Positions 4,349-10,884 of a stretch of 64,000 bases of DNA are shown here, one piece after another. The notes under the pieces are model-generated. The model made no database searches. It was not told the origin of the DNA and saw only the letters and a list, made by a program, of their open reading frames with translations. A program made the position numbers and the translations under genes. The stretch is from Haloglomus litoreum. GTDB taxonomy: Archaea > Halobacteriota > Halobacteria > Halobacteriales > Haloarculaceae. The stretch covers positions 4,402,001 through 4,466,000 of the forward strand of contig NZ_CP119988.1 in assembly GCF_029338515.1 (NCBI RefSeq). The letters run 5' to 3'. Every line of letters begins with the position of its first letter. Position 1 is the first letter of the stretch.

Positions 4349-4729
4349 GTCCGGGCGGCCCTACTGCCGGGGCGCGGTGACGGCCGACGTACGAGTTATG
4401 CGACCGGCCACGGAGCGGTGGGCAATCGGATGCGTCGGTTCCTCGACCTCGCCGCCGTCGCCATCGTCGTCATCGTCATCGTGGGTCGTGTCGCCGGCAC
4501 TCGCCCGCGGTCGGTGAGAGCGAGTCCGCGTGTTCGTGCTCGGCGACGACTGGTCGGCGGCGCGGATGCTCGAGGAGCCGAAGGACGACCCCGGGGACCT
4601 CCGGACGAACCACTCCCCCAGGGGCGAGGACAACCACCGGGTGGCGTTCGGGGCCGAGCGACCCCCCGGACGGGCGGCGCCCGGCTGTGTCGTGTGGCTA
4701 TAAACCCCCGACCCCCGAACGACTCAGGA
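4349..4729. other. Gene-poor stretch with two frame-shifted coding-like pieces
   Basis: No intact gene is convincing here. On the plus strand a segment from the ATG at 4430 starts MRRFLDLAAVAIVVIVIV, like a membrane or signal segment. After a +1 frame change, a second segment (about 4530-4701) starts VFVLGDDWSAARMLEEPKDD and ends in TAA inside the TATA box of the next gene. Both pieces have the G/C-rich third positions typical of real genes in this window. They could be remnants of one small gene broken by a frameshift, or chance. The TATA-like box of the patatin gene lies at 4698-4705. Confidence 0.35.
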
Positions 4730-5722
4730 ATGACCGACGACCCGCTGAAGGTCGCCATCGCCTGCCAGGGCGGGGGGAGCCACACCGCCTTCACCGCCGG
4801 AGCGCTCCAGCGACTCCTCCCCGAGATCACCCGCGAACGGTACGACGTCGTCGGATTCTCGGGCACCTCCGGCGGCGCTATCTGCGCGCTGCTGGGGTGG
4901 TACGGCCACGTGAGCCCGGACCACGCGCCGGCGGCGCTGCTCGGGGAGTTCTGGAAGGATATGGAGGCCGATACCCCCGCGGAACGGTACCTCAACGACC
5001 TGACCGTCCAGACCGCCCGCTTCCGGGCGATGGGCTTCCCGTTCCCGTCGTTCAGCCCGGGCCAGACCCCGGCCGGCGCCCTGGCCGAGCGTGAGCTCCG
5101 GCGGCTACTCGAGCGCCACGTCGACTTCGCGAACGCGCGGCGGCTGAGCGCCCAGATACGCGAGCAGCGCCACGAGGAGACCATCACACCAGGGCTACTG
5201 GTCAGCGCCATCGACGTACTGAGCGGTGAGTTCCGGGTCTTCCGGGGCCGCGAGATGAGCGCCGACGCGGTGCTGGCGAGTGCCGCCGAACCCGGCCTGT
5301 TCGGCGCCGTCGACGTCGACGGCCGCCACTACTGGGACGGGCTGTTCTCGAAGAACCCGCCGGTCCGTGACTTCTCGACTGCCGACGACATCCCCGACCC
5401 GGACGAGGTGTGGCTCATCCAGATCAACCCCTCCGAGCGGTCGACGGTGCCGACCTCGCAGGAGGGTATCGCCGACCGTCGCAACGAGCTCAGCGGCAAC
5501 ACCTCGCTGGAGCAGGAGGTCCAGTTCATCGAGCAGGTCAACGAGTGGGTCGACGCGGGCTACCTCCCCGAGCGGCACACCCACACGGACATCCGGCGGG
5601 TCCGCTTCGAGGAGGAGCTGGCGTGGTCGACGAAGCTGGACCGGTCGCCGGCGTTCCTCGAGGCGCTGTTCCGCACCGGGCGCGAACGAGCCGACGCCTT
5701 CCTCGGCGACCGGCGGGCGTAG
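4730..5722 (+). CDS. Patatin-like phospholipase family hydrolase
   Basis: A 330-residue putative serine lipid acyl hydrolase. All three patatin signatures are visible: the glycine-rich oxyanion loop CQGGGSHTAF (residues 12-21), the nucleophile elbow GTSGG (serine at residue 47), and the aspartate of the Ser-Asp dyad in YWDGLF (D203). Such enzymes cleave acyl chains from phospholipids or related lipids. In haloarchaea the lipids are ether-linked, so the natural substrate is uncertain. No signal peptide is seen, so it is probably cytoplasmic. The start is fixed by a TATAAA box at 4698-4705, 27 nt upstream of the ATG. It converges with a small membrane protein gene only 2 bp away. Confidence 0.9.
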   Translation: MTDDPLKVAIACQGGGSHTAFTAGALQRLLPEITRERYDVVGFSGTSGGAICALLGWYGHVSPDHAPAALLGEFWKDMEADTPAERYLNDLTVQTARFRAMGFPFPSFSPGQTPAGALAERELRRLLERHVDFANARRLSAQIREQRHEETITPGLLVSAIDVLSGEFRVFRGREMSADAVLASAAEPGLFGAVDVDGRHYWDGLFSKNPPVRDFSTADDIPDPDEVWLIQINPSERSTVPTSQEGIADRRNELSGNTSLEQEVQFIEQVNEWVDAGYLPERHTHTDIRRVRFEEELAWSTKLDRSPAFLEALFRTGRERADAFLGDRRA

Positions 5723-5724
5723 GG

Positions 5725-5937
5725 CTACTTCGGGGCTGGCTTCTCGGGAACCGTATCACGGTCACGGCGCCGGAGCCGCCGCGCGGCGAACCACGCGGCC
5801 ACGCTCGCGGCGAGCGCCCCGAGGGCGACCCGGCGCGCCGTGACGGGGGCGTTCGACCGGTCGGGCGGCTCGTCACCGTCCGGCTCCTTCTCGTCGCCGG
5901 CGAGTCGGCGGAGGGTCGGGCCGAAGACGACTGGCAT
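5725..5937 (-). CDS. Small single-pass membrane protein, unknown
   Basis: A 70-residue protein: a charged N-terminus (MPVVFGPTLRRLAGDEKEPD), one hydrophobic segment (about residues 42-58, ALGALAASVAAWFAA) followed by RRLRRRDRD, and a short polar tail. The layout suggests a small anchored protein with its positive cluster on the cytoplasmic side. No family recognised. Composition and codon use fit the neighbours, and it fits neatly between the patatin gene (convergent) and the SDR gene (same strand, 56 bp upstream). Confidence 0.55.
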   Translation of the reverse strand: MPVVFGPTLRRLAGDEKEPDGDEPPDRSNAPVTARRVALGALAASVAAWFAARRLRRRDRDTVPEKPAPK

Positions 5938-5993
5938 ACCGCACCCTCGGGGGCGGTCGGCTTCAATCGCTCGGACCGGCACCAGGGGTGGCC

Positions 5994-6869
5994 TCAGTAC
6001 GTGAGGCTCATCCCGCCCTCGTGGGTCATGTCGCCACCGTTGAGATGCTTGCTGTGGTGCGAACAGCCCATCACGTAGAGGTTCGCCACCTCGTAGGGCT
6101 CCATCATCTCCTTGACGCGGGTGCGTTCGAGCATCACCTGTTCGACGACCTCGTCGACGGTCAGTCCGCGGCGGTCGGCGGTGTCGGGCAGTTGCTTCGC
6201 GACCAGCCCGGTCTTGACGTACGCCGTCGAGACCGTGAACGCCCGGACCGTCCCCTCGCCCTCGGCGGCGATGGACTGGGTGAGCCCGCGGAGCCCGAAC
6301 TTGGTCGTGTTGTACGCCACCTTGTCCCGGGTGACGATGTGGCCGTGGACCGAGCACATGTTGCCGACGACGCCGCGGCCGTCGTCGTTCGCGCGGAAGT
6401 GTGGCAGGCAGTGTTTCGTCAGCAGCAGCGGTGCGCGCTGCATCACGTCGTGCATCAGGTCGTACTTCTCGACCGGGAACGACTCGATGGGCGCGACCGT
6501 CTGGATGCCGGCGATGTTCGCGAGGTAGCGGAGGTTCCCGTGCCCGGCGGCCTCGTCGACGATGCGCTCGAGGTCCGTGTCGTCCGCGAGGTTGCCCGCG
6601 ACGGTCTCGACCGTGCCGGGGAGGTCGAGGTCGGCGGCCCGCTCCTGGACCTCCGCGAGTCCGGCCTCGTCGCGGTCGGTCGCGACGACCGTCAGTCCGT
6701 TGGCCGCGAACGCGAGCGCGGTCGCTCGCCCGATGCCGGCGCCGCCGCCGGTCACGAGCGCGACGTTCTCCGATGCGTAGTTCGGGTCGTCCAGTTCCAG
6801 CAGGTCACCACGAGTGATCTCGCTGGGTCCGTACTTCTCCATCGCCTCATCGACGGTCATATCGGCCAT
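5994..6869 (-). CDS. Short-chain dehydrogenase/reductase (SDR), NAD-type
   Basis: A 291-residue classical SDR. A non-conserved N-terminal extension (residues 1-34) precedes the Rossmann fold with TGGGAGIG (40-47). Asp65 after beta-2 predicts NAD(H) rather than NADP(H). The NIAG motif (118-121), Ser173 and the YxxxK pair Tyr186/Lys190 complete the active site. Overall it resembles 3-hydroxybutyrate dehydrogenase or 3-oxoacyl reductase branches, but the substrate cannot be assigned. The C-terminus has the usual GGDMTHEGG loop. A CTATTC box (6893-6899) is spaced for a leaderless ATG at 6869. Confidence 0.88.
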   Translation of the reverse strand: MADMTVDEAMEKYGPSEITRGDLLELDDPNYASENVALVTGGGAGIGRATALAFAANGLTVVATDRDEAGLAEVQERAADLDLPGTVETVAGNLADDTDLERIVDEAAGHGNLRYLANIAGIQTVAPIESFPVEKYDLMHDVMQRAPLLLTKHCLPHFRANDDGRGVVGNMCSVHGHIVTRDKVAYNTTKFGLRGLTQSIAAEGEGTVRAFTVSTAYVKTGLVAKQLPDTADRRGLTVDEVVEQVMLERTRVKEMMEPYEVANLYVMGCSHHSKHLNGGDMTHEGGMSLTY

Positions 6870-6922
6870 ACGTCCAGAACCGCCGTCGGCGAGGAATAGC
6901 TACCGGCGGCGGCGCGAGCCGA

Positions 6923-7264
6923 CTACTCGATGTCGGCGCTGGCGTCCGACTGGACGTTCTCCAGCGCCCGTCGGGCGCCACTTTTCGAGGAGTAGCCCTC
7001 GCCACTGTCCGCGATGATGCGACCGTTCTTCGAGAGCAGCCGCCAGCGGTACTCACCGGCCTTGTCCTCGAACACCTCGAAGTGCGGCGTCCCGATCTCC
7101 AGCACGCTCGCGGTCGGCGCGTCGCGCTGGATGCGCTCGACGGCCTCCTTCGCGCTACTCTTCGAGGAGTAGCCCTCGCTGCTGTCCGCGATGATGTCGT
7201 TCCCGGATGTCAGTCGCCACCGATACTCGCCGGCCTTGTCCTCGTAGACTTCGTAGGATGCCAT
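6923..7264 (-). CDS. Tandem DUF1508 (YegP/HVO_2922-like) protein
   Basis: A 113-residue protein made almost entirely of two DUF1508 modules (about residues 2-50 and 61-110). Each has the pattern F/YEVxEDKAGEYRWRL ... DSxEGYSSKSxA. DUF1508 proteins are small alpha/beta domains, often duplicated, of unknown biochemical role. The family ATG at 7264 was chosen over the upstream one at 7291 because a strong TATATAAT box (7290-7298) lies at the leaderless distance and overlaps the earlier start. Its neighbour upstream on the same strand carries five further copies of the same module, so the pair probably arose by local duplication. Confidence 0.9.
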   Translation of the reverse strand: MASYEVYEDKAGEYRWRLTSGNDIIADSSEGYSSKSSAKEAVERIQRDAPTASVLEIGTPHFEVFEDKAGEYRWRLLSKNGRIIADSGEGYSSKSGARRALENVQSDASADIE

Positions 7265-7422
7265 ACAAACCTTCATTCGACCCCACAACATATATAATTA
7301 CCCCATATAGAGTAATATCAGCGATTAATTCTTTTGTAGCGAATAGACGACAGTAATGGAGGGCAGAATCGAGTTCTGTATATCCCGGGCGACCCCGGGT
7401 GGGGGCCGTACCGGTCCGACGG

Positions 7423-9153
7423 TCAGGCCGCTTCGGAGTCGGCGTTGGGAGCGTTGCGCTTCATGCTCTCGATGGCCTCGTAGACGCCGCTGCGGTCGGA
7501 GTAGCCCTCGCCGCAGTCGGCGATGATGTTGCCGTTGCGATGGCGGAGCCGCCAGCGCCACTCGCCGCCCTTGTCCTCGAAGATCTCGAATGCAGCACGG
7601 CCAGCGTCCAGCACGTCCGCCGCGGGGGCGTGCTTCTGGACCCGCTCGACGGCCTCTTCGACGCCGCTCTTCGAGGCGTAGCCCTCGCCGCTGTCCGCGA
7701 CGATCTGGTCGTTGCCACCGAGCGCCCGCCAGCGGTGCTCGCCCGCCTTGTCCTCGAATATCTCGAACTCGAGGTCGTCGGTGCGCTCGCGCATCCGGTC
7801 GACCGCACGGCGCGCGTCGTGGCGGCGGGTGTAGCCCTCGCTGCCGTCGGCGAGGATGTTGCCGTTCTCGTGGACGAGTCGCCAGCGGTACTCGCCGGCG
7901 GCGTCGCGGTACACCTCGAAGCCGGCTGGGTCGAGGCGGAGGTAGTCGGCCTCCGGGACGTACTCCCGGACGCGGCCGACGGCGGTGTCACGGCCCCCCG
8001 TCGAGGAGTAGCCCTCGCCGCTGTCGGCGAGGATGTTGCCGTTCTCGTGGCGGAGCCGCCAGCGGTGCTCGCCGCCCTTGTCCTGGTAGGTCTCGAACGT
8101 CGCGCGGCTCTCGCGCTCGGCGGGCGGCTCGAACGCCTCCTCCTCGTCGGGGAGTTCCTCGGCATCCTCGATGAGCCGGAGCTCGGCGCCGAGCGCGTTC
8201 CGCCGGACGCTCTGGAGCCCCCGCTGGGCGTCGTGCCGGCGGGTGTAGCCCTCGCCGCTGTCGGCGATGGCGTTCCCGTTCCGGTGGCGGAGTCGCCAGC
8301 GCCACTCGTCGGCGCGGTCGCGGTACAGTTCGAACCGGGCCTGGCTGGTCCGGAGTGCTTGCAGTTGCGCGGCGAGGTCGGCCTCGTCGGCCTCGGCGTC
8401 GAGCAGGTCCGCCTCGGCATCCTCGACCTGCTCGGTGAGCCGGCGGACGAGCCGCTCGCGCTCGTGCCGGTCGGTGGTCGCCGCGTCCAGCGCCTCGCGC
8501 AGCTCGGCCAGTTCGTCGCCCCGTTCGTCGTGGTCGCGCTCGGCGGTCAGCCGCCCGGACTCCGACTCCTCGACCTGCGCGGTCAGCTCCCGGATGCGCC
8601 GGGAGAGGTCGTCCTCGTCGGCGGCGGTGTCCGCCAGCGTCTCCCGCAGCTCTGCCAGTTCGCTCTCCTGGGCACCCAGTCGACTCTCCTGTTCGGCGAG
8701 GCGAGCCTCCTGTTCGACGCCCGTGGTGAGGACGGGGACGAGGACGCCGCCAATCCCCATCACCAGCAGTCCGAGGGCGTACACCCCGATGACGAGCGGC
8801 TGGCCCGACGCCGGGTTCCAGCCGGCCGGGTAGATGACCAGGAAGTAGAGGATACCGACGGCACAGATCAACAGGCCCCCATAGACCAGTGTGGTCGCCA
8901 GTCGCTGGAGGGGGAGCCGGATGAGCGGCCCCGCGAAGATGAGCGCCAGCCCCCCCGCAGCCAGCACGATCGCGACCTGCCGGAGGGCACCGGCCGACGT
9001 ACTCGGCAGGAACAGGATGATGCCGAGTACGCCGAAGAGGACCCCCAGCGCGAAAATCCAGTACCCCGTCGCCTCGTCTCCGGTGGTCGGCTGTCCGATG
9101 CGTTCGCGATACAATCGCGTCAGTGAGCTCTCCTTCTCAGTTTGAGTCGACAT
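7423..9153 (-). CDS. Membrane-anchored coiled-coil protein with five DUF1508 modules
   Basis: A 576-residue mosaic protein. Residues 1-30 are cytoplasmic (SSLTRLYRERIG), followed by four transmembrane segments (about 31-50, 58-77, 86-108, 121-143), a long Glu/Arg/Ala coiled coil (about 145-270), then five DUF1508 modules (about 271-320, 351-403, 410-458, 461-510, 520-572). Each module has an RWR core and an ADxGEGY or ADGSEGY turn. A DEEEAFEPP linker separates modules 1 and 2. The N-terminal region resembles the haloarchaeal DUF7139 membrane domain (name from memory). Function is unknown; the architecture suggests a membrane-tethered cytoplasmic scaffold. A TTATTC-type box (9184-9190) fits a leaderless start at 9153. 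Confidence 0.88.
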   Translation of the reverse strand: MSTQTEKESSLTRLYRERIGQPTTGDEATGYWIFALGVLFGVLGIILFLPSTSAGALRQVAIVLAAGGLALIFAGPLIRLPLQRLATTLVYGGLLICAVGILYFLVIYPAGWNPASGQPLVIGVYALGLLVMGIGGVLVPVLTTGVEQEARLAEQESRLGAQESELAELRETLADTAADEDDLSRRIRELTAQVEESESGRLTAERDHDERGDELAELREALDAATTDRHERERLVRRLTEQVEDAEADLLDAEADEADLAAQLQALRTSQARFELYRDRADEWRWRLRHRNGNAIADSGEGYTRRHDAQRGLQSVRRNALGAELRLIEDAEELPDEEEAFEPPAERESRATFETYQDKGGEHRWRLRHENGNILADSGEGYSSTGGRDTAVGRVREYVPEADYLRLDPAGFEVYRDAAGEYRWRLVHENGNILADGSEGYTRRHDARRAVDRMRERTDDLEFEIFEDKAGEHRWRALGGNDQIVADSGEGYASKSGVEEAVERVQKHAPAADVLDAGRAAFEIFEDKGGEWRWRLRHRNGNIIADCGEGYSDRSGVYEAIESMKRNAPNADSEAA

Positions 9154-9750: not shown

Positions 9751-10884
9751 GTGCGAAGTTTCACCATCGGCCGGATCTGGGACATCCCAATCCGGATCAA
9801 CATCTCGCTGCTGGTCTTCCTCCCCATCCTCGCGTGGCTCATCGGGAGCGGCGGCCAGGTCGCACTGTACGCAGGCTACATCGAGAGCCTCACCGGCGTC
9901 GCGCTCGACGTCGGCGTCCTGCGGGCCGGGAACACACCCTGGCTCATCGGCACGCTCGCGGCGGTCGGCCTGTTCGTCAGCGTCACGCTCCACGAACTCG
10001 GCCACTCCTACGTCGCGCGTCGCTACGGCATCCAGATCGAGTCCATCACGCTGTGGATCCTCGGCGGGATGGCCGCGCTCAGCGAGGTCCCCCGCGAGTG
10101 GGACCGCGAGTTCTGGATCGCCATCGCCGGCCCGGCGACGAGCGTGCTGGTCGGTGCGGTCTGCTACGGTATCCTCCTCGCCACGCCCGAATCGCTCCCC
10201 ATCGTCCGGTTCGTCGTCGGCTACCTCGCTATCATCAACATCATCCTCGTCGTGTTCAATCTGCTTCCCGCGTTCCCGATGGACGGCGGGCGCATCCTGC
10301 GGGCGCTGCTGGCCCGGAACCGCCCGTACGCCAGCGCGACCCGCATCGCCGGGCGCGTCGGCGTGCTGTTCGCCATCCTCTTCGCCGTCGTCGGCGTCAT
10401 CGGGTTCAACCCCATCCTCCTGTTGCTGGCGCTGTTCATCTACGGCGCGGCCACGACCGAGTCCCGGACCACCATCATCGACGACCTGCTGGAGGGCGTC
10501 ACGGTCGGCGACGTGATGACCACCGGGACCGCCCACGTCGACGCGGACGAGACTGTCGCGGGCCTCATCGACCGGATGATCCGCGAGCGCCGCACCGTCT
10601 ACCCCGTCCGGGGCGAGTCGGGCGAGACGGTCGGCCTGGTGGCGCTGGCCGACCTGAAGTCGGTCAAGCGGGCTGACCGCGAGGCCCTCCGGGTCGCCGA
10701 TGTGGCCCACGACGCCCCCCGCATCGACGCGACCGCCGACGCGTTCGACACCCTCGCCCACCTCGGCGGGGGCGGCCCGGCGCTCGTCGTCCGCGACGGC
10801 GCCGTCGTCGGAACGCTCTCACAGGAGGACTACTCGCACGCGCTGTCGTTCCAGAAGGAGTTCCGGACCGGCGTCCTCGGCTGA
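9751..10884 (+). CDS. Site-2 protease family (M50) metalloprotease with CBS pair
   Basis: A 377-residue membrane protease. The zinc motif HELGH (residues 81-85) sits in a hydrophobic helix; the third ligand region is NLLPAFPMDGG (170-180); several more hydrophobic segments fill residues 15-235. The C-terminal part (about 251-367) is a CBS-domain pair (VGDVMTTGTAHVDADETV, LADLKSVKR), which commonly senses adenine nucleotides. Family members cut transmembrane proteins inside the membrane to release regulators. The start is a GTG at 9751, supported by a CTTTTAC box (9722-9728) at the leaderless distance. Confidence 0.93.
   Translation: MRSFTIGRIWDIPIRINISLLVFLPILAWLIGSGGQVALYAGYIESLTGVALDVGVLRAGNTPWLIGTLAAVGLFVSVTLHELGHSYVARRYGIQIESITLWILGGMAALSEVPREWDREFWIAIAGPATSVLVGAVCYGILLATPESLPIVRFVVGYLAIINIILVVFNLLPAFPMDGGRILRALLARNRPYASATRIAGRVGVLFAILFAVVGVIGFNPILLLLALFIYGAATTESRTTIIDDLLEGVTVGDVMTTGTAHVDADETVAGLIDRMIRERRTVYPVRGESGETVGLVALADLKSVKRADREALRVADVAHDAPRIDATADAFDTLAHLGGGGPALVVRDGAVVGTLSQEDYSHALSFQKEFRTGVLG

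Follow-up and report, generated by a model that had tools for sequence, protein, structure and literature searches.

What is assembled when five DUF1508 (YegP-type) domains are strung behind a single membrane anchor, and does a small two-module protein encoded next to them belong to the same system? Both questions are raised by two adjacent genes in a 64,000-nucleotide stretch of the Haloglomus litoreum genome, hereafter referred to as the window. YegP-type domains are common, and we know of no established function for them. The original prediction placed seven such modules in the two genes, five of them on a membrane anchor, and this description is borne out by Pfam and AlphaFold2, the two open frames running from 9153 to 7423 and from 7291 to 6923 on the minus strand. 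The features discussed below are the following.

7423..9153, minus strand: array gene, 576 aa, encoding five DUF1508 modules behind a DUF7139 membrane anchor and a coiled coil (Pfam, AlphaFold2)
8728..9126, minus strand: DUF7139 anchor, residues 10-142, four predicted transmembrane (TM) helices (Pfam PF23600, E 4.7e-25; loop charges in 84 arrays; AlphaFold2 helices)
8350..8727, minus strand: coiled coil, residues about 143-268, variable among orthologues (orthologue alignment, charge, AlphaFold2)
8170..8346, minus strand: DUF1508 module M1, residues 270-328, basic, with an acidic linker after it (module search, charge)
7930..8109, minus strand: DUF1508 module M2, residues 349-408 (module search)
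7780..7929, minus strand: DUF1508 module M3, residues 409-458 (module search)
7603..7776, minus strand: DUF1508 module M4, residues 460-517, the most acidic (module search, charge)
7432..7599, minus strand: DUF1508 module M5, residues 519-574 (module search)
6923..7264, minus strand: stand-alone two-module protein, 113 aa, M4-M5 type (Pfam, array identity, array profile)
7290..7297, minus strand: TATA-like box TTATATAT, upstream of the ATG at 7264 by 26-33 bases (read from sequence)
9751..10884, plus strand: M50 (site-2 type) membrane metalloprotease with a CBS domain, divergent from the array and a possible partner only (Pfam, neighbourhood in other genera)

Domain make-up of the two proteins

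The Pfam search assigns five DUF1508 copies to the long protein (268 bits, cut-off 22) and DUF7139 to its anchor (88.4 bits against 30), and two DUF1508 copies to the short protein (111.8 bits). A whole-genome scan found exactly seven DUF1508 places, all of them within these two genes; since all seven exceed the cut-off, with 50 to 70 bits against 22 and E values from 1.1e-12 to 6.9e-19, chance is excluded as their source. Regarding the two motifs that the modules had been said to keep, RWR is indeed present in 7/7 window modules, whereas GEGY is found in five of the seven, SEGY standing in its place in M3 and in the short protein's first module.

Both proteins also match NF041908, the equivalog model of the HVO_2922 family (349 bits for the long protein and 143.6 for the short one, cut-off 90). 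Members of that family consist of a single module of about 54-60 aa, whereas five and two modules are found here in 576 and 113 aa; therefore, the modules are relatives of HVO_2922 but the proteins are not HVO_2922. The Haloferax volcanii protein (PDB 6q2z) is the best solved relative. In the array, every module is likewise a full DUF1508 domain, although HVO_2922 itself is a single module of 60 aa with neither anchor nor array, as opposed to five modules on an anchor.

Across residues 143-269 of the window array, which comprise the coiled coil, the net charge is about -23. The HAMP model (PF00672) scored below threshold on this segment in Pfam (18.7 bits, cut-off 25). The coiled coil is missing in 2/9 aligned arrays and is thus a non-constant, non-essential part of the array family.

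The array is a real, conserved architecture made from known domains and, as far as our literature searches reach, undescribed. In the open-access literature searched, no paper was found on DUF7139/PF23600, on haloarchaea together with DUF1508, or on a tandem YegP domain of unknown function. In published work, yegP homologues are placed behind capK-capS immune-operon regulators in 57 cases (PMC13373217), the HVO_2922 gene is listed as perchlorate-induced and filed under repair (PMC12175516), and the protein served as a spike-in (PMC12850539); two further papers name HVO_2922 in the reference list only (PMC8406309, PMC8305020).

Spread of the arrays, module order and joints

The survey of fused architectures in haloarchaea that had been suggested was carried out with a profile built from nine arrays. 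At E <= 1e-60 it matches 91/293 genomes of the order, some of these matches being partial or degenerate, and 30 of its 88 genera. Such arrays had been regarded as exceptional, a view that does not survive this spread, nor the finding of a second family in which DUF7139 is followed by about 13 divergent DUF1508 modules. This second family (L107-L112) shares anchor and domain with the array and is longer, but it is not the ordered M1-M5 set. It occurs in 72 of the 293 genomes and 34 of the 88 genera, and 13 genomes hold both families. The six proteins read (L107 at 4675-7632, and L108-L112) measure 745-1062 aa, with 13 modules in four of them and 9 and 11 in the others, and a pitch of 57-60 between module starts is common. 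DUF7139 itself is present in 277/293 genomes of the order. The haloarchaeal membrane proteins of this family (PF23600), of about 300 aa, have the same anchor as the array, although one of them (L069) has no DUF1508 in Pfam, unlike the array. The genome of the window contains two further DUF7139 copies, and its three genus mates (G001-G003) show single DUF1508 matches and no array.

A phylogeny of the individual modules, which had also been proposed, was computed from 210 modules of 43 chosen loci. Each module is nearest to modules of its own position: among the nearest five modules from other five-module arrays, 767/840 occupy the same position (M1 158/170, M2 168/170, M3 136/170, M4 165/165 and M5 140/165). 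Because the nearest modules share their position, we conclude that the array was assembled a single time, its modules then being kept distinct and ordered. The positions differ in mean charge as well, with values of +3.9 for M1, -2.2 for M2, -1.4 for M3, -7.4 for M4 and -1.4 for M5 (33-34 arrays).

The spacing of the modules was examined in the 96 loci read, which comprise the window, 14 of 20 regions from one set, L117 and 80 others, and which include 81 five-module ORFs. The distance between RWR motifs was measured in 79 of these, two having no readable motif. It is 59 residues between M2 and M3 in 70/79 ORFs (SD 1.5) and between M4 and M5 in 66/79 (SD 0.7); M1-M2 distances range from 63 to 137 and M3-M4 distances from 48 to 87. 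The joint is stiff within M2-M3 and M4-M5, and elastic at M1-M2 and M3-M4. Natural splits of the array into two genes are confined to the elastic joints, with none seen within M2-M3 or M4-M5 among the 96 loci: five fall after M3 (L104, L191, L214, L215 and L226, in three genera) and one after M1 (L220), where stop and start overlap. L223 was not counted as a split, owing to an apparent frameshift close to the contig end. In the module tree, the free modules from the five 3+2 splits cluster with M4 and M5.

Other layouts were also found. L212 encodes M1-M3 followed by a lone M5-type protein, L106 retains M3-M5 and L101 has four modules, while L117 (5671-6603) and L228 (730-1605) encode DUF7139 and a coiled coil with M1 alone. 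An anchored protein of four modules, apparently without M1, is encoded in the same genome as L228 (L225, 4501-5682), so that blocks can sit on separate anchors. Another genome (G255) combines a five-module array (L208) with a distinct 3+2 locus (L191).

Several single cases deserve mention beside these counts. At L220 (11034-12455 and 1957-3755), one contig of G067 holds a five-module array and a 1+4 split array about 7 kb apart. In G009, five modules lie in a frame that has no DUF7139 anchor (L097, 6775-7809), either a possible frameshift or a free tail. A five-module array, its modules counted by eye in the translation, is carried by a Haloarcula marina plasmid (NZ_CP100409.1; L296, 6983-8521), where it is annotated merely as 'DUF1508 domain-containing protein'; from this case, the array gene is able to reside on plasmids. 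Finally, three small proteins contain two DUF1508 modules each (L116, 5845-6495; L118, 5487-6137; L115, 6208-6861); the first additionally carries an Amphi-Trp domain, and the other two have starts of similar appearance.

Topology, fold and the question of nucleic-acid binding

Loop charges, computed on 84/93 arrays, provide the orientation of the anchor. The TM2-TM3 loop contains on average 2.36 K+R and 0.17 D+E, against 0.35 and 0.33 K+R in the two outer loops. Since this loop is basic, the positive-inside rule predicts that the DUF7139 termini and the DUF1508 modules face the cytoplasm. The AlphaFold2 model of the long protein, which derives from a two-sequence alignment and is usable for topology only (mean pLDDT 63, pTM 0.33), shows four anchor helices, the fourth continuing into a long helix (119-203 and 208-268), and five strand-strand-strand-helix modules.

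The modules prove to be related in fold, as had been presumed: all are DUF1508-like, with three strands and then a helix as in the solved members (Foldseek to 6q2z, 2k49 and 2k8e, E <= 6.4e-4). The clear matches of this structure search were known DUF1508 structures only, with no further clear family among those listed from the fold libraries searched. The YegP-like fold is described as a repeat of beta-beta-beta-alpha-beta cores (PMC2954219). E. coli YegP (2k8e) and SO_3888 (2k49) comprise two tandem modules, and the array model matches both over about two modules; they are, however, small free-standing proteins, and the matched array pair, M3-M4, has the shorter joint. In the low-confidence array model, YegP superposes on residues 408-511, the M3-M4 pair (Z 11.6, rmsd 2.5, 102 aligned), and in the model of the short protein the modules are arranged unlike YegP (rmsd 13).

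The 59-residue spacing had led us to consider M2-M3 and M4-M5 as YegP-like pairs. This assignment was not retained, given that the weak array model puts YegP on M3-M4 and not on M2-M3 or M4-M5, and for the same reason our claim is limited to stiff and elastic joints.

Proteins of halophiles are typically acidic. The positive mean charge of M1 over 34 arrays is unusual in this regard, and would fit an array whose modules bind DNA or RNA and tether nucleic acid to the membrane, with M1 as the main contact. We consider this reading unlikely. The strongly acidic M4 (-7.4) argues against it, and the resemblance to double-stranded RNA-binding domains (dsRBDs) on which it also draws, namely a weak Foldseek likeness to chains of TARBP2 (7zpk, prob 0.60) and R2D2 dsRBD1 (prob 0.44), the order of strands and helix, and a GEGY-SSK loop that we take to be reminiscent of the dsRBD loop motif, fades in closer comparisons. 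A profile comparison with 30 RNase III dsRBDs (hhalign) was not significant, with a probability of 0.65% and a score matched by 6/60 column shuffles, the Pfam dsrm model matched none of 19 members, and VIA Z scores for dsRBDs were at most 4.0, within the chance range. On the profile comparison and the absent dsrm matches, we reject kinship with the dsRBD (PF00035).

The short gene and a possible docking platform

The open frame of the short gene (7291-6923) would encode 122 aa if read from the upstream ATG. The TATA-like box TTATATAT at 7297-7290 overlies that ATG and is located 26-33 bases before the next one, at the distance from a leaderless start that is usual for an archaeal TATA box; consequently, the start is most likely at 7264 rather than 7291, and a separate promoter is probable for the short gene. 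The encoded protein matches positions 395-504 of the array profile, that is, its M4-M5 part, and shares 59% identity with M4-M5 of its own array; by this similarity, the free two-module protein is classed as an M4-M5 block. In the module tree, its first module groups among M4 modules, and its second module is nearest to the first, then to M4 modules, and not to M5, a placement that may reflect gene conversion or a short-sequence artefact. In a separate M4-M5 tree of 40 rows, its branch is without support, and a single clade of all stand-alone two-module proteins is not rejected (p 0.139).

It had been anticipated that the two proteins would co-occur in other genomes. For a five-module array next to a two-module protein this is not the case, the window being alone among the 81 five-module ORFs, but the 3+2 form recurs in five loci of three genera. 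The idea that array and short protein would bind each other by way of the module interface is supported indirectly, by the M4-M5 identity of the short protein and by the M4-M5 proteins that adjoin arrays devoid of M4-M5 in those genera.

The uniqueness of the 5+2 arrangement also bears on a different explanation, namely that the short gene is a mere by-product, arisen in this lineage when an array underwent fission or was partly duplicated, with no functional link to the intact array, which works alone. The window array is complete in all five modules, the genus mates have no array, and the window copy is unplaced in the M4-M5 tree, all of which would be expected of such a by-product. The short gene is, however, intact: RWR and EGY are present in each of its two modules, and it carries its own TATA-like box. 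M4-M5 proteins also persist next to arrays in three other genera. We regard the by-product explanation as somewhat doubtful.

We tentatively propose instead, as a reading that is plausible though far from assured, that the long protein forms a dimeric platform at the membrane, to which partners dock by pairing of DUF1508 modules. DUF7139 would anchor the platform in the membrane with the array facing the cytoplasm, and the coiled coil, where present, may dimerise it. The tail carries five distinct modules in the order M1 / M2-M3 / M4-M5, stiff within the last two blocks and flexible between blocks. Single-module DUF1508 members dimerise, and the modules of the array would likewise associate in twos, as in the two-module YegP; those lacking an internal partner might pair either with another platform molecule or with soluble proteins of the DUF1508 type, while the neighbouring free M4-M5 block could join or compete at the pairing site. 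The overall role that we infer, docking and biological output included, is most likely that of a multivalent docking scaffold. A comparison at the level of how it works, with no claim of homology (Foldseek to PURA, prob 0.10), can be drawn with Pur-alpha, in which repeats I and II pair in-chain and a third repeat dimerises (PMC4764581); nucleic-acid binding is unsupported for the array.

A partner of the platform may be sought in its neighbourhood. The window M50 gene begins 598 bases beyond the array start, with HELGH and DGG intact. Conceivably, the adjoining M50/CBS protease cuts the anchor and frees the array by regulated intramembrane proteolysis; a permanently soluble counterpart would then be provided by the free M4-M5 protein. 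In the genera g1 (that of the window), g10 and g54, whose arrays belong to different clades, an M50 gene and an array gene are no more than 1.2 kb apart; in g44 and g23 the distance is 4.5-10.2 kb. The pairs occur in three orientations, and catalytic HExxH and DGG are conserved in 3/3 M50 proteins read. Where the distance is 1.2 kb or less, the locus additionally holds a free M4-M5 or M5 gene, the exception being a degenerate locus outside the read set (G012). The search covered 78 of the 91 array genomes and found an M50 gene within 15 kb of the array in 15/78 genomes and 5/30 genera, but no match within that distance on the array's contig in the other 63. Under a uniform model that excludes the window genus, the distance test gives p 0.0026-0.014 (<=1.5 kb) and 0.0004-0.008 (<=12 kb), values uncorrected for having picked the M50 neighbour. 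Haloarchaeal S2P homologues are listed as of unknown target (PMC9263693). The adjacency is a lead for an array partner that is suggestive only, and release of the array by this protease seems to us very unlikely.

Besides shadow ORFs of the array, clustering of ORFs in flanks of about 5 kb at 95 loci returned neighbour families in at most four genera, some of which are common genes (thiolase, AMP ligase). Defence-system models gave only weak matches on the array loci, mostly on the coiled coil, and the virus search matched one distant locus.

The docking platform could be extended to a more specific, highly speculative picture that we hold to be the most improbable of those given here, in which DUF7139-DUF1508 arrays are membrane-bound address plates of haloarchaea: each non-interchangeable module would recruit its own soluble DUF1508 partner, free M4-M5 blocks would be loaded, and the M50/CBS site-2 protease would release the array. 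As regards the family as a whole, the modules are non-redundant and a free block can be assigned to its position in the array. A DUF1508 domain located at the membrane, in an order kept over 30 sampled genera and with natural split versions, thus offers a testable handle on this domain.
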